9,474 nucleotides of DNA. It comes from Kiloniellales bacterium (GTDB lineage: Bacteria; Pseudomonadota; Alphaproteobacteria; Kiloniellales; JAKSBE01). The notes under the pieces are model-generated. The model had not been told where the DNA came from. It was given only the letters and a program-made list of their open reading frames with translations, and did no database searches. Position numbers and translations under genes: made by a program. Location of the stretch: NCBI GenBank assembly GCA_030067055.1, contig JASJAL010000161.1, forward strand, positions 1 to 9,474. The letters run 5' to 3'. Position 1 is the first letter of the stretch. The number at the start of each line of letters is the position of its first letter. Below are positions 873-9,474 of this stretch, in pieces.

Positions 873-1859
873 ATGATCAGCTTCAGACAGGCCGTCCCCT
901 ATCTCGCGGCGACCGCCTTGCTGGCGAGCGTCACGTCGGCGGCGCAGGCCGCGGAATGGCGCGGCTGGAACATCCACAAGCCGGACTACCCCAACACCGT
1001 GGCGATGGACAAGTTCGCCGAGCTTCTGAAGGAGAAGTCCGGCGGCAAGATCACGTTGAAGATGTTCCATTCCGGCACCCTGGGCACCCAGCCGGACGCG
1101 ATCGAGCAGGTTCGCATCGGCGGCCTGGAGATTGGCAATTTCAACCTGGGCCCGATCGGCCCGGTGGCGCCAGAGGCGAACGTGGTCTCCCTGCCCTTCG
1201 TCTTCCGGGACATGGAGCACATGCACCGCGCGCTTGATGGCGAGGCGGGCGATCAGATCAGCGCCGGCATGGCCAAGAAGGGTCTGGTCGCGCTGGCCTG
1301 GTACGATTCGGGGGCGCGCTCCTTCTACAACTCGAAGAAGCCGATCGAGAAGCCGGCCGACGTCTCCGGCATGAAGGTCCGGGTCATGAACAACGACCTC
1401 TATTCCGGCATGATCGCGGCGCTCGGCGGCAACCCCTCGCCGATGGCCTTCTCCGAGGTCTACCAGTCGCTCAAGACCGGCGTGGTCGACGGCGCCGAGA
1501 ACAACTGGCCGTCCTACGAATCCACCGGGCACTTCGAGGTCGCCGGCTACTACTCCCTGTCGCAGCACCTGATCATCCCGGAATGCGTCTGCATTAACGC
1601 GTCGGTTTACGACGGCCTCTCCGACGCCGACAAGGCGCTGGTGAAGGAGGCCGCCCGGGAATCCGCGGTCCTGCAGCGCGAACTCTGGGCCAAGCGCGCC
1701 GAGTCCAGCCGCGAGAAGGTGATCAAGGCCGGGGTCAAGTTCAACGACATCCCGGACAAGGCCGCCTTCCAGGAGGCCATGCAGCCGGTCTACGACAAGT
1801 ACCTGAGTGCGAATCCCGACCTGAAGCCGCTGGTCGAGCTGATCCAGAACACGAAGTAG
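873..1859 (+). CDS. dctP: TRAP transporter substrate-binding protein DctP (probably sugar-acid type)
   Basis: This is the periplasmic solute-binding subunit of a tripartite ATP-independent periplasmic transporter, which hands an organic acid to the DctQM membrane pair. It has 328 residues, normal for the family. A signal peptide covers residues 1-26 (cleavage AQA/AEW). The ligand-site signature lies at 147-215. R149 and R170 (in MKVRVMNND) are conserved positions; R170 matches the arginine that grips the ligand carboxylate. The segment VDGAENNWPSYESTGH (205-220) and the following YYSLSQH resemble binding proteins for hexuronates or related sugar acids, so such a ligand is inferred, not proven. 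The start at ATG 873 has GGGAGG six nt upstream. It is the first gene of the cluster, preceded by the operator region at 738-778 and followed by a strong hairpin. Confidence 0.93.
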   Translation: MISFRQAVPYLAATALLASVTSAAQAAEWRGWNIHKPDYPNTVAMDKFAELLKEKSGGKITLKMFHSGTLGTQPDAIEQVRIGGLEIGNFNLGPIGPVAPEANVVSLPFVFRDMEHMHRALDGEAGDQISAGMAKKGLVALAWYDSGARSFYNSKKPIEKPADVSGMKVRVMNNDLYSGMIAALGGNPSPMAFSEVYQSLKTGVVDGAENNWPSYESTGHFEVAGYYSLSQHLIIPECVCINASVYDGLSDADKALVKEAARESAVLQRELWAKRAESSREKVIKAGVKFNDIPDKAAFQEAMQPVYDKYLSANPDLKPLVELIQNTK

Positions 1860-1872
1860 GCCCCTATTGGCG

Positions 1873-1914
1873 GCGGTCATCGGCTCTCGGCGAATGCCGA
1901 GGGCCGGTGGCCGC
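1873..1914 (+). promoter_or_regulatory. 19-bp RNA hairpin between dctP and dctQ
   Basis: Positions 1873-1891 pair with 1896-1914 without interruption, closing on a GAAT tetraloop. The stem has 19 pairs, three of them G-U (1877-1910, 1880-1907, 1885-1902), and the rest are mostly G-C. No T-run follows, so a classical terminator is unlikely. Hairpins directly after a binding-protein gene are known to protect the upstream message from 3' exonucleases or to cut down read-through, which raises binding protein relative to membrane subunits. That role is inferred here. It fills most of the 103-nt gap between the genes. Confidence 0.7.
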
Positions 1915-1962
1915 ACCTCACCTAGCCCGTAACAGCGGCTTTGCTCGGAGCGGTGTTGAGTC

Positions 1963-2484
1963 ATGCCCGACCGGACGCATCCGGATAGGAAATCCCGCTA
2001 CGACCGGCTGCTGGACCTGATCGGCAAGGCCAGCATGCTGATCTGCGGCGTCGCCCTGGTCGCCCTCACGGCGATGTTCGGCTGGCTGGTCTTCGGTCGC
2101 TACGTCCTGAACTCGACGCCGACCTGGGTCGAGCAGGTCGCGCTGCTCCTGGTCATGCTGATCGGGTTCCTGGGCGCCTCCGTCGGCATCCACAGGAACA
2201 CTCATCTTCGCATCTCCTACTTCCGCGAGGTTAGTCCGCGGCCGCTGCGGCTGGTCTTCGTCGTCGTCTCGCACCTCGCCCTGCTCGGCTTCGGCGCGGT
2301 GATGATGGTCAAGAGCTACGAGCTGGCCGTCTTCAAGTGGGGCACGGAAATCCCGCTGATCCACCTCCCGGAAGGGCTCAGGGCGATCCCGATCATGCTC
2401 TGCGGGGCCTTCACCTCGCTGTTTTCCATCGGCCATCTGCTCCGGCTGCTCAAGGGCGCCGGCGACGATGCGTCGGATGGCTGA
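1963..2484 (+). CDS. dctQ: TRAP transporter small membrane subunit DctQ
   Basis: This is the small integral membrane protein of the TRAP transporter, which joins the large permease subunit and helps dock the loaded binding protein. It has 173 residues, as usual for DctQ. Four hydrophobic helices lie at about 22-46, 57-76, 95-117 and 139-162. The family signature is clear: FGRYVLNSTPTWVEQVALLL (44-63), then GFLGASVGIHRNTHLRI (68-84). The usual acidic pair after the Trp (WxEE) is WVEQ here. The tail is short and hydrophilic. ATG 1963 is the first usable start, but its ribosome site is weak: GGAG lies 12 nt away. Together with the preceding hairpin this suggests lower translation than dctP. dctM follows after 10 nt. 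Confidence 0.9.
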   Translation: MPDRTHPDRKSRYDRLLDLIGKASMLICGVALVALTAMFGWLVFGRYVLNSTPTWVEQVALLLVMLIGFLGASVGIHRNTHLRISYFREVSPRPLRLVFVVVSHLALLGFGAVMMVKSYELAVFKWGTEIPLIHLPEGLRAIPIMLCGAFTSLFSIGHLLRLLKGAGDDASDG

Positions 2485-2494
2485 AGGCTGAACC

Positions 2495-3778
2495 ATGGGC
2501 CTGCTCGTCCTGCTGGGGATCTTCGCGGCCTGCGTCATCGTCGGCATACCGGTCGCCTTCGCCCTGGGGATCGCGGCCGTCTCGGCCTTCTTCTACGAGG
2601 GGCTGCCGCTGATCATCGCCTTTCAGCGGATCATCTCGGGCATCAACGTTTTCTCGCTGATGGCGATCCCCTTCTTCATCTTCGCCGGCGAGCTGATGTT
2701 CCACGGCGGCATCGCGATCCGCCTGGTCCGCTTTGCCTCCGCCGCGGTCGGCGCCATGCGGGGCGGACTCGGCATCGTCAACGTCTTCTCCTCCATGCTG
2801 TTCGGCGGGATCTCGGGCTCCGCCGTGGCCGACATCTCGGCGCTGGGCTCGATCCTGATCCCGGTGATGAAGGAGAAGGGCTACGACGACGACTACGCCG
2901 TCAACGTGACCGTGACCTCGTCGATCGCCGGGATCATGATCCCGCCGAGCCACAACATGATCCTCTTCGCCGTGGCCACCGGTGGCGGCGTATCGATCTC
3001 CAGCCTGTTTCTGTCGGGCGTCGTGCCCGGCGTGGTGATGTGCGTCTGCCTGGCGACCGCCGCCTACCTGATCGCCGTCCGGCGGGGCTACCGCGCCGAG
3101 GCCTTCCCCGGCATTCCGGTGCTCTTGGTGAGCTTCATCGCCGCGCTGCCGGGCCTCTTCACCGCGGTCATCATCGTCGGCGGCGTCCTCAGCGGCATCT
3201 TCACGGTGACCGAATCCGGCGCCTTCGGGACGATCTACGCCTTTCTCGCGACCATCATCGTCTACCGCGCGCTGACCTGGGAGAACTTCAAGATCGCGGT
3301 CGTCAATTCGGTGCGGACCACTTCGATGGTCATGATCCTGGTCGCCTGCGCCGCCGCCTTCGCCTACATGCTGACCTTCTACCAGGTGCCCTCGCGGATG
3401 ACCGGCTTCATGTTCGGCATTTCCGAGAACCCGGTGGCGGTCCTGCTCATGATCAACCTGATGCTGCTGGTGCTCGGCATGATCATGGACATGGCGGCCC
3501 TGATCCTGATCTGCACGCCGATCTTCCTGCCGGTCGCGCAGTCGCTGGGCATGGACCCCCTGCAGTTCGCGATGATCATGATGATGAACCTGGGCCTGGG
3601 GCTCTGCACGCCGCCGGTCGGCGCCTGCCTCTTCGTCGGCTGCGCCGTCGGCCAGGTGCCCATCGAGCGCGCGGTCAAGACCATCTGGCCCTTCTACGCG
3701 GCGATCCTGGTCGCCTTGATGCTGACCACCTTCGTGCCGGCGATCTCGCTGGCCCTGCCAACCTGGTTCGCGGGGTAG
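2495..3778 (+). CDS. dctM: TRAP transporter large permease subunit DctM
   Basis: This is the large transport subunit, an elevator-type secondary transporter driven by a sodium gradient, and it works with DctQ and DctP in the inner membrane. Its 427 residues are the standard length, almost wholly hydrophobic with about eleven or more helices and two re-entrant hairpins. Family motifs are intact in both inverted halves. FGGISGSAVADISALGSI (103-120) and IMIPPSHNM (147-155) lie in the first half. FTVTESGA (236-243), GMIMDMAALILICTPIF (328-344) and NLGLGLCTPPVGACLF (365-380) lie in the second. The Ser/Thr/Gly-rich tips form the sodium and substrate sites in characterised relatives. The start ATG 2495 lies 10 nt after dctQ and the regulator follows 4 nt after the stop, so the three genes are surely co-transcribed. 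No truncation is seen. Confidence 0.95.
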   Translation: MGLLVLLGIFAACVIVGIPVAFALGIAAVSAFFYEGLPLIIAFQRIISGINVFSLMAIPFFIFAGELMFHGGIAIRLVRFASAAVGAMRGGLGIVNVFSSMLFGGISGSAVADISALGSILIPVMKEKGYDDDYAVNVTVTSSIAGIMIPPSHNMILFAVATGGGVSISSLFLSGVVPGVVMCVCLATAAYLIAVRRGYRAEAFPGIPVLLVSFIAALPGLFTAVIIVGGVLSGIFTVTESGAFGTIYAFLATIIVYRALTWENFKIAVVNSVRTTSMVMILVACAAAFAYMLTFYQVPSRMTGFMFGISENPVAVLLMINLMLLVLGMIMDMAALILICTPIFLPVAQSLGMDPLQFAMIMMMNLGLGLCTPPVGACLFVGCAVGQVPIERAVKTIWPFYAAILVALMLTTFVPAISLALPTWFAG

Positions 3779-3782
3779 CGCT

Positions 3783-4499
3783 GTGGTCGACCTGAAGCTC
3801 AAGATCGAGAAGCGCGAGAGGCTGGCCGACCAGCTCTACGGCCAGCTGCTGGAGAAGATCGTCTCCGCCGAGCTGAAGGAGGGCGACAAGCTGCCCTCGG
3901 AGAACCAGATATCGCGGGCCTTCAACGTCTCGCGGCCGGTGATACGCGAAGCGCTGCTGCGCCTGCAGGCCGACGGACTGGTCTATACCCGCCAGGGCGC
4001 CGGGACCTTCGTCAAGGCCCGGCCGCCCGAGGGCCTGATCCACTTCGCCTCGCCCTCCGACGTCGCCGGTCTGCTGCGCTGCTTCGAGGCGCGGCTGCCC
4101 TTCGAAGGCGCGGCCGCCAGCCTGGCGGCGCAGCGGGCGACGGCCGAGGACATCAAGAACATCGAGGCCACCCTGGGGGAGCTGCAGGCTGCCCTGAAGG
4201 GAGACGACCTGGCGGACGAGGCCGACTTTGCCTTCCACATGGCGATTGCCAAGGCCACCGGGAACGACATCTTCGTCAGCATCCTGTCTTCGCTGAATAC
4301 GGCGATGATCGCCGGCATGCGGGTCGCCCTCAGCATCACCAAGCGAGGATCGCCGGAACGCATACAGAAGATCCTCGACGAGCACCGGGCGATCGCCGAT
4401 GCGATCTCGACCGGGGATTCGGTCGGGGCCGACCTGGCGATGCGCTACCACATTCACTGCGCGCGCAAGCGCGTCACGGATCACCTGCGCGACCGATGA
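3783..4499 (+). CDS. GntR-family transcriptional regulator, FadR/FCD subfamily
   Basis: This is a DNA-binding regulator that usually represses a catabolic or transport operon until an organic-acid ligand binds. It has 238 residues. The winged helix-turn-helix covers about 10-78, with the GntR hallmark KLPSENQISRAFNVSRPVIR (36-55) and the wing RQGAGTFV (70-77). The FCD effector domain covers about 95-230. Its metal ligands appear intact as D148, H152 (DFAFHMAIAKATGN), H201 (DEHRAI) and H223. R104, in FEARLPFE, is at a position often facing the ligand. Translation starts at GTG 3783, only 4 nt after dctM, with GGGG upstream. Being inside the TRAP operon and matching the operator type at 766-778, it most likely represses its own cluster. 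The true ligand is unknown and is probably the imported acid or its first product. Confidence 0.92.
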   Translation: MVDLKLKIEKRERLADQLYGQLLEKIVSAELKEGDKLPSENQISRAFNVSRPVIREALLRLQADGLVYTRQGAGTFVKARPPEGLIHFASPSDVAGLLRCFEARLPFEGAAASLAAQRATAEDIKNIEATLGELQAALKGDDLADEADFAFHMAIAKATGNDIFVSILSSLNTAMIAGMRVALSITKRGSPERIQKILDEHRAIADAISTGDSVGADLAMRYHIHCARKRVTDHLRDR

Positions 4500-4514
4500 T
4501 CGACGCAGGGAACC

Positions 4515-4536
4515 GCGCGGTGCCTCCGGACCGCGC
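4515..4536 (+). promoter_or_regulatory. Small GC-rich hairpin between the regulator and the SDR gene
   Basis: GCGCGGT (4515-4521) and ACCGCGC (4530-4536) form a 7-bp stem with an 8-nt loop in the 73-nt gap between the GntR and SDR genes. No T-run follows. It could tune read-through or message stability between the two genes, and no promoter is evident here. Given the high GC content, chance formation is possible. Confidence 0.35.
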
Positions 4537-4572
4537 CCGGATATCGGCAAACCAAATGGAAAGTGAAAAAAG

Positions 4573-5331
4573 ATGCAGGATCTAGCAGGCAAGTCGGTCT
4601 TGGTGACCGGGGCGAGCACGGGAATCGGCGCGGCAGTCGCCAAAGGCTTTGCAGGCTGCGGCGCCAAGGTCGCAATCCACTGCGGATCGAGCCTGGCCGA
4701 GGCGGAGGCGGTCCAGGCCGAGATCAGCCAGGCCGGCGGCACCTCCAAGGTCTTCCAGGCCGACGTCCGATCGACCGAGGCCGTTTACGGCCTGGTCGAG
4801 TCGGTTGTCGCGGAGTTCGGCGCCCTCGACGTCCTGGTCTGCAACGCGGGCGGCCTGGTCGGACGGGTCGGCCTGCAGGAGCTGACCGCCGAGTTCTATG
4901 ACGAGGTCATGACCTTGAACGTGCGCTCGGTGATGGAGAGCTGCGCCGCCGCCATCCCGCACCTGATCGAGACCCGGGGCAACGTGATCGTCACCGGATC
5001 GCTCGCGGCGCGCATGGGCGGCGGCAACGGCGCCAGCCTCTACGCCGGCGCCAAGGCCGCGGTCGAGAACATGGTCCGCAACTACGCCCGGGAGTTCGCT
5101 GAGCAGGGCGTGCGCTTCAACGCCGTCGCCCCCGGCACCATCTACACCTTGTTCCACGAGAAGCACACGCCGCCTAAGGTCCTCGAGGCGATCACGTCGA
5201 CGATCCCTATGAAGCGCCTGGGCACACCGGAAGACTGCGTCGGGACCTATCTCTACCTCGCCTCCGACGCGATGTCCGGCTACGTGACCGGCCAGGTCGT
5301 CGAGGTGAACGGCGGCCAGCTGATGCCGTAG
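4573..5331 (+). CDS. Classical short-chain dehydrogenase/reductase (SDR), NAD(P)-dependent
   Basis: This is a cytosolic oxidoreductase acting on an alcohol or carbonyl group with NAD(H) or NADP(H). It has 252 residues, the classical SDR length. The Rossmann dinucleotide motif TGASTGIG is at 12-19, D64 lies in the ADV motif, NAG is at 91-93, and the catalytic tetrad is N116, S143, Y157 and K161 (SLYAGAK). PGTI (187-190) binds the nicotinamide side. The end (GYVTGQVVEVNGGQLMP) is typical of FabG-like members. The residues after strand 2 (IHCGSS) lean toward NADP(H), but this is uncertain. ATG 4573 has a purine-rich leader (GGAAAG 9 nt upstream). It lies 73 nt after the regulator and is the only enzyme of the cluster, so it probably acts on the TRAP substrate or its product, for example a sugar acid. 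Databases may call it 3-oxoacyl-ACP reductase, but the context argues against a fatty-acid role. Confidence 0.9.
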   Translation: MQDLAGKSVLVTGASTGIGAAVAKGFAGCGAKVAIHCGSSLAEAEAVQAEISQAGGTSKVFQADVRSTEAVYGLVESVVAEFGALDVLVCNAGGLVGRVGLQELTAEFYDEVMTLNVRSVMESCAAAIPHLIETRGNVIVTGSLAARMGGGNGASLYAGAKAAVENMVRNYAREFAEQGVRFNAVAPGTIYTLFHEKHTPPKVLEAITSTIPMKRLGTPEDCVGTYLYLASDAMSGYVTGQVVEVNGGQLMP

Positions 5332-5688: not shown

Positions 5689-7986
5689 ATGGACCCAGAG
5701 CCACTACCGCGCAAACTAGTCGCCATCCTCTATGCAGATGTTGCCGAGTATTCGCGCCTCACGGGCGAGGATGAGGATGCGACGCACCGGCGGCTTGCCC
5801 AGTATCTTGACCTCCTGACCGCCACCGTCGACAGCTATGGCGGCGAAGTCATGAACTTCGCCGGCGATGCCGCGCTCGCAAAGTTCGAGGCCATCGTCGA
5901 TGCGCTCTCCTGTGCGGCGCGCATTCAGAGCGAGATCAAGATCCGCAACGACGAGCTTGCGGAGGACAAGAAGGTTCAATTTCGCATCGGCGTGAACCTG
6001 GCCGATGTGATCGAGGACAGACGCGACATCTACGGCGACGGCGTCAACGTGGCGGCCCGGTTGGAAAGCTTGGCGGCACCCGGCGGTATCTGCGTTTCCG
6101 AATCCGTGCACTCGGCGATTGGAAGCAAGCTGCCCTTCGACTACGAGTTTCTGGGTGAGCGAGAGGTCAAGAATATTGTCTCGGCGGTCAAGGTCTATCA
6201 GATCCACCTGAAGCCAGGTGCCGAGCTGCCGGAACCCACCGGCGTTTCGAAGCGAAAACGACAGATCAGGCGCCAGGTAGCGGTCGCGGCGGGGGTCGCG
6301 CTCATGCTCTCGGCGGGCGGTCTGGTCGCTTGGTTCGAGCCCTGGGAGACCGCAGAGCGCGCCAGCCCGCTGGATCGGACGGCATTCGAGGTGCCGGACA
6401 AGCCGTCGATTGCGGTCCTGCCCTTCGAAAACATGAGCGACGACCCGAAGCAGGAATACTTCGCGGACGGTGTGACCGAGGACCTGACCACCGACCTGTC
6501 GAAGCTCTCCGGGCTGTTCGTCGTCGCCCGGGATTCGAGCTTCGCCTACAAGGGAAAGCCGTTGAATGTCCAGGACGTCGCGAGGGAGCTCGGGGTTCGC
6601 TACGTCCTGGAGGGCAGCGTCCGCCGGTCCGACGGCCAGATCCGCATCAACGCGCAGCTCATCGACGGCTTCAGCGGCGGCCACCTGTGGGCGGAGCGCT
6701 ACGACGCCTCGATGACCGATATTTTCGCCTTGCAGGACAAGGTGACGCAAAACGTCGTGACTGCCCTTGCCGTCCGACTGACCGAGCCGGAGCGGGAGCA
6801 CCAAGAGAAGAATGGCGATCCGAAGGCCTACGATGCTTTCCTGCGCGGCCGCGCCTACTACAACCTGAGCACGCCGGAGGACTACGCCAGAGCGCTTCCT
6901 TATTTCGAGAAAGCCATCCAGCTGGACCCCGGCTATCCCCGCGCCCACGCCTGGCTCGCGGCCATGTACTGGAACCTGTGGAACGAGGACTGGCAGGCCA
7001 CCCTCGAAATGACGGCCGACCAGGCGATCAAGAAACTCGAGCTCCACTTGGAAGCGGCCATGGCCGATCCGACGCCCATGGCACACTATGTCGCCGCTGC
7101 CTTCTATGCCGCCCAGGGGCGCTACGACGAGGCAATCGCCCAATCCAATCGCGCGATCCTGATGGATCCCAATTCGGCCATTGGATACAAGGGACTGGGC
7201 AGAATTCTGAACAAGGCCGGACGCCCGGAGGAAGGCCTCGAGGTCATCAAGAAGGCGACTCGGCTCGATCCTCGGGGCGACGACGGTGGCGACGACACTT
7301 ACCGCATCGGCGAAGCCCTGTTTCTGCTCGGGCGATACGAGGAAGCGGCGACGATGTTCCGGAGGTACATCGACCGCTCGGGCGATGAAGAGTGGGGCTC
7401 CTTGCTCCTAGCCGCGAACTACGCGCAGTTGGGACGTACGAAGGACGCCGAGGCGGCAATCGCCAGGTTCGATGAGATCAGGGCGAAGCGGGGCCTGCGC
7501 CCTTACACGCTCGCCGAGTTCGACGATTGGGCCTTCGCGCCGTCGGTCAGGGAGCGATACCGGGAAAGCCTGCGCAAGGCGGGCATGCAACCGGGCGCCT
7601 CGTCTTCCCCGGTGCTTGCCGGCGTGAACCTTGCCCCCAACGAGGTCGAAGGGGCCATGACCATCGATGCTGCGCGGGCAAAGGCGCTCTTGGATGAGGG
7701 CGTGACCTTCGTCGACGTTCGCGGCAAGGACCCCGCCTGGCATCTGGGCCGGATTCCGGGCGCGGTGCACCTTCACCTCTACCACGACTTCAGCGAAGAA
7801 AAGCTCACCAAGCTGGTGGCCAAGGAAGATCCGCTCGTCATCTACGCGAGCGGGCTCCGCAGTCGTGAATCCGGCGCCGCAAGCGCGCGCGCGGTCTCCT
7901 GGGGTTTCGAGAACGTCTACTTCTTCCGAGAAGGGTTCCCGGGCTGGAGGGGCGCCGGCTATGCCGTCGAAGTCGCCTCCCAGTAG
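5689..7986 (+). CDS. Class III nucleotide cyclase - TM - TolB-like - TPR - rhodanese fusion protein
   Basis: This predicted membrane signalling protein has 765 residues. Residues 8-175 form a class III adenylate/guanylate cyclase domain. It has metal-binding D17 (LYADVAEYS) and D60 (NFAGDAALAKF), a base-contact aspartate D113, and transition-state residues N120 and R124 in DIYGDGVNVAAR. The position that holds the base-recognising lysine in well-studied adenylyl cyclases is N56. Residues 197-216 form one membrane helix, preceded by a basic patch (KRKRQIRRQ). Residues 238-365 form a TolB-like domain (SIAVLPFENMSDDPKQEYFA), expected outside the cytosol. Residues 378-600 carry TPR-type helical repeats (YFEKAIQLDPGYPRAHAWLA; RYDEAIAQSNRAILMDPNS). 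Residues 655-765 form a rhodanese domain (VDVRGKDPAWHLGRIPGAVH) whose active-site loop reads VIYASGLRSR, with A720 where cysteine is expected. ATG 5689 is chosen for AGGGG seven nt upstream; a GTG at 5653 is weaker. Cyclase activity is likely, and the product and stimulus are unknown. Confidence 0.9.
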   Translation: MDPEPLPRKLVAILYADVAEYSRLTGEDEDATHRRLAQYLDLLTATVDSYGGEVMNFAGDAALAKFEAIVDALSCAARIQSEIKIRNDELAEDKKVQFRIGVNLADVIEDRRDIYGDGVNVAARLESLAAPGGICVSESVHSAIGSKLPFDYEFLGEREVKNIVSAVKVYQIHLKPGAELPEPTGVSKRKRQIRRQVAVAAGVALMLSAGGLVAWFEPWETAERASPLDRTAFEVPDKPSIAVLPFENMSDDPKQEYFADGVTEDLTTDLSKLSGLFVVARDSSFAYKGKPLNVQDVARELGVRYVLEGSVRRSDGQIRINAQLIDGFSGGHLWAERYDASMTDIFALQDKVTQNVVTALAVRLTEPEREHQEKNGDPKAYDAFLRGRAYYNLSTPEDYARALPYFEKAIQLDPGYPRAHAWLAAMYWNLWNEDWQATLEMTADQAIKKLELHLEAAMADPTPMAHYVAAAFYAAQGRYDEAIAQSNRAILMDPNSAIGYKGLGRILNKAGRPEEGLEVIKKATRLDPRGDDGGDDTYRIGEALFLLGRYEEAATMFRRYIDRSGDEEWGSLLLAANYAQLGRTKDAEAAIARFDEIRAKRGLRPYTLAEFDDWAFAPSVRERYRESLRKAGMQPGASSSPVLAGVNLAPNEVEGAMTIDAARAKALLDEGVTFVDVRGKDPAWHLGRIPGAVHLHLYHDFSEEKLTKLVAKEDPLVIYASGLRSRESGAASARAVSWGFENVYFFREGFPGWRGAGYAVEVASQ

Positions 7987-8155: not shown

Positions 8156-8998
8156 ATGAGTCAGATAGACGAGAGGGACAGGTTCGATAGGGGCGAATTC
8201 GATGCCTGTTATCTGAACAAGAAGCCCTTGATCATTCGGGGGGCGGCGCGGAGCTGGCCTGCCATCCATTGGAGCTTCGAAAGCCTTGGAGAAGTCTGCG
8301 GCAAGCACGTCATCACGATCGAGTCCTACGATGCCGGCGAAGAAACCTACTGGGAACAGATGAACCGGCATAAGCGGACCCTGTATTTCGATGACTACCT
8401 GAACGAGCTGCAACAAAGACCCGATCCGCTCTGGAGCCTTCGCGAGAACTACGAAATCTTCTTCTCCCATCCGGAGCTCAAGCAGGACTTCCGGGTGGAG
8501 GCGCTGTTCCCCGAGATCACCAAGGAATGGTTCTATTACCTCTGGTGCGGGCCCGAGGGCTATGTGACGGGACTGCACGCCGACGATCTGGAGAACAACA
8601 TCCTGGTCCAGATTCGGGGTGAGAAGATCTTCAAGTTCTATCATCCCGACGATACCGAGTTTCTCTATCTCGAATCCGATGCCCTCTGCGACGGCGCCTA
8701 TTACAGCCTCGCGGATCCCTTCAGCCTCGATCTGGAAAAATTCCCGGCGATGAGGAACGCGACCGAGTACACTGCGACCGTCGGCCCGGGCGACATGATC
8801 TACGTCCCGGGATTCTGGTGGCATGCGGTGAAGTCGCTCTCGCCCGTCATCAGCGTGAACGTCTGCTATGGGGACAATCAATCGAAGATCCACGATGAAG
8901 AGAGATGGCTGAAGGCGCAAGGGCGCCACGGCGAAGCCTGCCTCCAATGTGCCCGAGGCCGGTCGGCGCCGCAGCGACCCGACCTCGTAAACACCTGA
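8156..8998 (+). CDS. JmjC/cupin_8-family Fe(II)- and 2-oxoglutarate-dependent oxygenase
   Basis: This is a soluble oxygenase of the cupin-like JmjC hydroxylase group, which use iron, oxygen and 2-oxoglutarate to hydroxylate proteins or small molecules. It has 280 residues. The N-terminal segment YLNKKPLIIRGAARSWPAIH (19-38) is the usual lead-in of cupin_8 proteins. The iron triad is H141 and D143 (TGLHADD) plus H223 (VPGFWWHAV). T138 and K157 (RGEKIFKFYHP) match 2-oxoglutarate contacts in the human asparaginyl hydroxylase FIH. GPGDMIYVPGF (210-220) is the typical strand before the last histidine. All catalytic residues are present, so it should be active. The start at ATG 8156 follows a run of seven G, a poor ribosome site. 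It lies 169 nt after the cyclase gene with its own -10 box. The substrate is unknown, and related genes are often found near peptide or natural-product genes, which are not seen here. Confidence 0.88.
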   Translation: MSQIDERDRFDRGEFDACYLNKKPLIIRGAARSWPAIHWSFESLGEVCGKHVITIESYDAGEETYWEQMNRHKRTLYFDDYLNELQQRPDPLWSLRENYEIFFSHPELKQDFRVEALFPEITKEWFYYLWCGPEGYVTGLHADDLENNILVQIRGEKIFKFYHPDDTEFLYLESDALCDGAYYSLADPFSLDLEKFPAMRNATEYTATVGPGDMIYVPGFWWHAVKSLSPVISVNVCYGDNQSKIHDEERWLKAQGRHGEACLQCARGRSAPQRPDLVNT

Positions 8999-9070: not shown

Positions 9071-9474
9071 ATGACGCCGTTGAAAGAACCCGCGCAGATC
9101 CGACTGCCGCGCCGGCGCTTCGTGGTCTCCACGGCTTGCCTGGCCGGCCTCGGATTGGCCGGATGCCAGGTCAATCTGCCCGGGAGCGGCGAGGCCCCGC
9201 GGCGGATCCGCCTGGCCGCCCTGGAGGACTTCCCCCCCGAGCTCCCGACCGCGGGCTGGGCGTTGCAGGTCAACGAACCCACCGCCACGCTGTCGCTCAA
9301 CACCGCGCGCATCGCGATCGGCACGCGAGACAACATCAGGTACGTCTCGGGCGGCCAGTGGGCGAGCCGCGCGCCCGAGATGGTCATGGAGCTGCTCGCC
9401 AAGTCCTTCAGCAACTCTGACAGACTTTCCAAGGTCGTTGACCGGCGCGGCCGGATCCGACCGGATTTCGTTCT
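9071..9474 (+). CDS. PqiC-like ABC-transport auxiliary lipoprotein, N-terminal part (runs off the right edge)
   Basis: This is an outer-membrane or periplasmic lipoprotein of the ABC_trans_aux/PqiC family, which assists MCE-type lipid transport across the envelope. The 134 codons present run to the window edge. A basic n-region (RLPRRRF, 11-17) is followed by a hydrophobic stretch and the lipobox LAGC, giving acylation at C32. The family core is easy to see: LSLNTARIAIGTRDNIRYVS (75-94), then the GGQWASRAPEMVMELL segment, with a closing pattern RLSKVVDRRGRIRPDFVL. ATG 9071 has GAAGG 11 nt upstream. It also overlaps the TGA of an 18-codon frame (9018-9074) by ATGA. The RRRF could look Tat-like, but a lipobox with a short hydrophobic core fits ordinary Sec export. 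PqiC-type genes normally follow permease, ATPase and MCE-protein genes, none of which lies upstream here. A 6-bp hairpin (9034-9039 with 9045-9050) lies just before the gene. Confidence 0.85.
   Translation, partial: MTPLKEPAQIRLPRRRFVVSTACLAGLGLAGCQVNLPGSGEAPRRIRLAALEDFPPELPTAGWALQVNEPTATLSLNTARIAIGTRDNIRYVSGGQWASRAPEMVMELLAKSFSNSDRLSKVVDRRGRIRPDFV

Follow-up and report, generated by a model that had tools for sequence, protein, structure and literature searches.

A predicted transmembrane class III cyclase receptor with a rhodanese-fold domain devoid of its cysteine pair

The stretch of DNA analysed here, henceforth referred to as the window, is 9,474 nucleotides long and contains, on the + strand at positions 5689–7986, a gene encoding a 765-residue receptor. 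The open reading frame and its Pfam matches describe a cyclase, a transmembrane (TM) helix, a TolB-like/TPR region and a rhodanese domain, in that order. Genes for a TRAP transporter (DctP, small and large permease), a GntR-type regulator and an SDR oxidoreductase, named from their best NCBIfam matches, occupy 873–5331 on the + strand, and this block ends 357 bases before the receptor gene. A gene for a Cupin_8/JmjC-like protein (8156–8998, + strand, 128 bits) lies downstream, separated from the receptor gene by 169 bases. The possible start of a gene for an ABC-transport auxiliary lipoprotein was found at 9074–9474 (+ strand) with 19.5 bits, below the cut-off of 26, and is cut by the window end. 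The annotated flanks of loci L004 and L005 had nothing obvious in common with the window, and a promoter/terminator scan gave no signal above chance.

The class III nucleotide cyclase domain (Pfam PF00211) spans residues 10–173 (5716–6207, + strand). It is followed by a helix at residues 197–215 (6277–6333, + strand), the only TM helix predicted in the receptor by hydropathy, with six Lys or Arg in the 15 residues on its N-terminal side compared to two in the 15 on its C-terminal side. The TolB-like and TPR region, residues 226–562 (6364–7374, + strand), matches the CadC periplasmic domain; TPR matches fall between about residues 397 and 592 by Pfam. The protein terminates in a rhodanese-fold domain (residues 655–765; 7651–7983, + strand), identified by PF00581 and by structural models and devoid of any Cys, in which the former active-site loop was located at residues 720–728 (ASGLRSRES; 7846–7872, + strand) by family alignments. 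The single TM helix, the N-terminus inside and the CadC-type periplasmic domain, each as predicted, are those of a CadC/ToxR-like protein, while a PF00211 cyclase stands in the place of the N-terminal winged helix. A fold comparison of the full-length receptor returned only cyclases and CadC among the 50 matches listed. The TM helix, the charge bias and the CadC match would together place the rhodanese domain in the periplasm.

The cyclase domain retains the key residues D17, D60, N120 and R124 and thereby belongs to class III; we take D17 and D60 to be the metal-binding aspartates and N120 and R124 to be the transition-state pair. In adenylate cyclases, a Lys/Asp pair selects the base. The receptor keeps Asp113 of this pair and carries Asn56 at the Lys site, a replacement that bears on the substrate and leaves membership of the class III family unaffected.

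The Pfam Rhodanese match covers residues 661–755 with an E-value of 6.9e-11 and 42.9 bits against a cut-off of 22.2, and is thus no chance match. The loop reads VIYASGLRSRES at residues 717–728 of the open reading frame starting at 5689. Ala720, encoded by GCG at 7846–7848, aligns gap-free in family alignments with the Cys of the motif Y-C-x-G-P-x-C-L-R-S, confirming the original prediction that Ala replaces the catalytic Cys. A plain gap at the Cys position, given by one pairwise alignment to the rhodanese 2hhg, is contradicted by these alignments. In the AlphaFold model, residue 720 immediately follows the strand at 716–719, where the catalytic loop belongs. Both members of the C-x4-C pair of the relatives are lost in the window, their places being occupied by A720 and S725, and Cys is absent from TolB to the C-terminus. 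When the rhodanese domain was fold-searched separately from the full-length receptor, its model was moderate (pLDDT 62) and the best Foldseek E-value was 0.0025, with none under 0.001. By its fold and its above-cut-off match to PF00581, the domain belongs to the rhodanese superfamily; with Ala720 instead of the loop Cys, it lacks the signature of an active sulfurtransferase and corresponds to an inactive rhodanese on a multi-domain protein. In active rhodaneses, as described in the available text of PMC10135228, the Cys lies in the loop after strand beta-3 in a Cx4R/T or Cx5R motif. In the present receptor family, the Cys-type loop has C-x6-R as its predominant form and exceeds the usual C-x4-R by about two residues.

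The possibility that Ala720 is a sequencing error was rejected since the codon is three substitutions away from either Cys codon and the same loop occurs in P0003, a protein that is 90% identical overall to the window receptor and is encoded on its own 138-kb contig. A further protein, named as coming from a Kiloniellales MAG (P0002), differs from the window receptor at one residue, D151E.

Relatives (P0002–P0135) were collected from three protein searches, one of which gave 120 of the 165 matches, and together with the window receptor (P0001) make up 135 proteins. Tabulating the residue at the Cys position across these proteins among the matches listed, as had been proposed, gave C 101, A 17, S 7, G 6, T 2, F 1 and gap 1. 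For further analysis, P0002 was dropped together with a truncated row and five rhodaneses that differ in domain architecture, and plasmid-borne proteins of Sinorhizobium fredii NGR234, Rhizobium sp. TH2 and Phyllobacterium sp. T1018 were added. In the resulting alignment of 131 rows, 99 have Cys at the site and 32 have another state. Loop Cys occur as two or none: 98 rows have the C-x4-C pair, 3 a shifted pair and 29 none, with P0079 as the only row containing a single one. The shifted pairs belong to P0013, P0071 and P0080 of the window's clade, in which the first Cys has moved by one residue (x-C-G-x-x-C), possibly representing a regain or an intermediate.

A TolB motif was recognisable in 110 of the 131 rows, comprising 82 Cys-type and 28 Cys-less rows. 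From TolB to the C-terminus, 80 of the 82 Cys-type rows contain only two or three Cys, the third often being at residue 732 (58 of 98 Cys rows), and 15 of the 28 Cys-less rows, including the window, contain zero. A TM helix is predicted before TolB in 77 of 82 Cys-type and 26 of 28 Cys-less rows. The outputs of the relatives vary among cyclase, wHTH, BTAD and TIR; the winged-helix domain PF00486 was found in 14 of 120 relatives among the matches listed. In P0070, a TIR domain replaces the cyclase ahead of the TPR-rhodanese part. A scan of genome contigs yielded a single distant locus (36% identity) in a Chthoniobacterales MAG. A small rhodanese encoded by a Chthoniobacterales MAG (L001, 3843–4427, + strand) is unrelated and reads LVIYDHQGHRS, with Asp at the expected catalytic Cys.

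An unrooted tree built with the loop columns removed shows three changes of Cys state, three being forced by the starred branches, compared to a mean of 28.9 with shuffled labels. The window falls in clade A, whose 21 rows all lack Cys at this site (SH-aLRT 98) and which has seven Cys rows as its sister. Clade B contains nine Cys-less rows (SH-aLRT 98) and is adjoined by P0130 on a weak branch, and S. fredii NGR234 is surrounded by Cys rows. What had originally been described for the window, a cyclase-TolB-TPR protein whose rhodanese has kept its fold and lost its nucleophile, is common to a whole clade. Close homologs carrying Cys had been named as a finding that would speak against this; the closest homologs carry none, whereas the wider family does. 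One shared loss for clades A and B was rejected by an AU test (p 0.0088) that used a simpler model, a tested group picked after the tree had been seen and a reduced set of rows (17 of 21 from clade A and 7 of 9 from clade B against 16 of 99 Cys rows plus NGR234). The changes are read as losses rather than gains because Cys is the rule in rhodaneses, the tree itself being unrooted. In the window's lineage, both loop cysteines appear to have been lost together long ago.

Of seven clade B cyclases, all but P0123 (P0113, P0121, P0124, P0125, P0126 and P0131) have their base-selecting sites occupied by Glu and Thr and the transition-state Asn replaced by Val. With these substitutions, the six cyclases may be altered or inactive.

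The rhodanese fold is under constraint in the Cys-less proteins. Divergence of the domain outside the loop was expressed relative to that of the TolB/TPR region and compared in bins of eight or more pairs. The ratio was 0.86–1.03 in clade A, and the Cys rows as a whole gave 0.96–1.27 in the corresponding bins; against its seven-row Cys sister, clade A was not slower (1.03 and 1.00 versus 0.82 and 0.90 in two bins). Of the three bins of this size for clade B, two lay above the Cys rows (1.19 and 1.10 versus 1.02 and 1.00) and the third gave 1.23 versus 1.27. With the loop excluded, the window and P0003 differ at 7.1% of domain columns, compared to 9.3% for TolB/TPR. All 21 clade A rows agree at fourteen positions of the domain, including W684, D700, W753 and the loop residue G722. 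Position 728 is Ser in 13 of these 21 rows, which, together with the invariant G722, suggests that some role of the loop may remain.

Each of the 98 Cys rows examined has a loop of 13 residues, whereas the length is 13–15 in clade A and 12–17 in clade B. The ratio of loop entropy to that of the rest of the domain was 1.79 for clade A and 1.99 for clade B, compared to a mean of about 0.9 for random sets of Cys rows, with 0 of 2000 as high. The calculation was repeated without the two Cys columns because these are by definition constant, or nearly so, in Cys rows, giving 1.84 and 1.97 for clades A and B and 1.16 for random Cys rows (again 0 of 2000 as high). Among Cys controls, the same ratio was 1.41 for a 24-row clade, 0.62 for a 66-row set and 1.96 for the sister clade; in draws from the 24-row clade, the clade B value was reached in 2 of 2000 and the clade A value in none. 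The contrast in the loop thus stands against the family at large and not against the nearest Cys rows, and variation in length would be the clearer sign of a released loop.

In S. fredii, four strains have a copy with Ser and Gly replacing both Cys (L003, L006, L007 and L008). In strain GR64, the megaplasmid that bears the S/G copy (L006), which has no cyclase in its open frame, also bears an open C/C copy (L009). Rhodanese dN/dS was 0.10, 0.16 and 0.24 between the three intact S/G genes and 0.10–0.31 for all ten pairs, and 0.13–0.25 for the cyclase and TolB/TPR parts.

The reading that we favour, with a probability of about 50%, is that of a CadC-like cyclase receptor whose rhodanese cap has lost a Cys-pair switch and now most likely serves as a structural or docking element. 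The receptor would be a transmembrane protein in which a cytoplasmic class III cyclase replaces the DNA-binding domain of CadC and the predicted periplasmic TolB/TPR sensor region bears the cap. In most relatives, the conserved C-x4-C of the cap would act as a switch that responds to redox state or sulfane sulfur. Along the lineage of the window, the two Cys would have been lost together while the fold was kept and the loop drifted in length and letters. Thiol chemistry would then have no effect on the window receptor, and its cyclase would be driven only via TolB/TPR sensing. Loss of the Cys from a domain that is otherwise kept suggests that a thiol-based sensor became a part free of thiols; a fold retained around a drifting loop points to a structural role or, possibly, to the docking of a partner.

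The original prediction, which was partly supported as a whole, had instead proposed that the old pocket binds an anion or sulfur compound and regulates the cyclase without catalysis. Rhodanese loops bind anions via backbone amides. Such binding needs no Cys, and both the fold and G722 are kept throughout clade A; variable letters alone are no proof of a lost pocket, given that the Cys sister clade is equally variable at its non-Cys loop positions, and loop entropy is for the same reason not decisive. A pocket under selection fits less well with a loop that is constant in length in every Cys row and variable in clades A and B, and with letters that vary more than those of randomly drawn Cys rows. 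The proposal is weakened by these observations, though not decisively, and we consider it rather unlikely.

It is improbable that the rhodanese is a decaying, functionless remnant in the Cys-less clades, since the rest of the domain is about as conserved as in Cys-type relatives, its invariant positions persist in clade A, the window and P0003 differ less in the domain than in TolB/TPR, and the S. fredii dN/dS values are well under 1. The absence of both loop Cys, the drift of the loop, the slightly raised ratios of clade B and the GR64 S/G copy without a cyclase are nevertheless what decay would produce. This last copy also argues against cooperation of Cys-less members with Cys-type paralogs, for example as mixed dimers, to which the pairing of both types on the GR64 megaplasmid would lend itself. 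Class III cyclases function as dimers, in agreement with such an arrangement, which we nonetheless consider very improbable.

Extending the structural or docking reading to the relatives, we tentatively propose a large undescribed family of periplasmic receptors that couple a C-x4-C rhodanese switch to interchangeable outputs and have lost the chemistry at least three times with the cap kept. If so, natural Cys-less receptors, the window's among them, would be locked in one state of the switch or rewired to a periplasmic partner. The original prediction that the architecture is undescribed was borne out within a full-text literature search, where a cyclase-TolB-TPR-rhodanese protein appeared in no title or abstract start among the matches listed. 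This apparently unstudied family may join periplasmic thiol chemistry to cyclic-nucleotide and transcriptional signalling in Proteobacteria, and its matched Cys-type and Cys-less members, including the open C/C and S/G copies found across S. fredii strains, offer a natural experiment on a rhodanese fold without its chemistry.

The best NCBIfam models for the rhodanese domain were TIGR03865 (PQQ_CXXCW, 37.0 bits) and NF045694 (TsoB, 32.8 bits), far from their cut-offs of 128 and 805; the names and lengths of TIGR03865 and NF045694, the latter a rhodanese/DsbD fusion-like selenoprotein, imply no cyclase/TolB/TPR part. The class III cyclase Rv1900c (LipJ) of M. tuberculosis has a lipase partner domain according to the name of NF058673, and presumably neither TolB/TPR nor rhodanese. 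CadC of E. coli, a ToxR-like protein, has a wHTH output, as do some relatives, whereas the window receptor has a cyclase and an added C-terminal rhodanese that CadC presumably lacks. CadC is a periplasmic disulfide switch according to the available text of PMC3096576. Its pair, Cys208/Cys272, lies in its own sensor domain, while that of the relatives lies in the rhodanese loop. Inactive rhodaneses fused to unrelated domains form an accepted class 4 and are considered mediators of protein-protein interaction, as far as the available text of PMC10135228 describes them. The window receptor shares with this class, as there described, the rhodanese fold, the absence of a loop Cys and the attachment to other modules. 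It differs from class 4 in general in that its domain is part of a bacterial transmembrane receptor with relatives that carry the Cys pair, in a family with at least three changes of Cys state.
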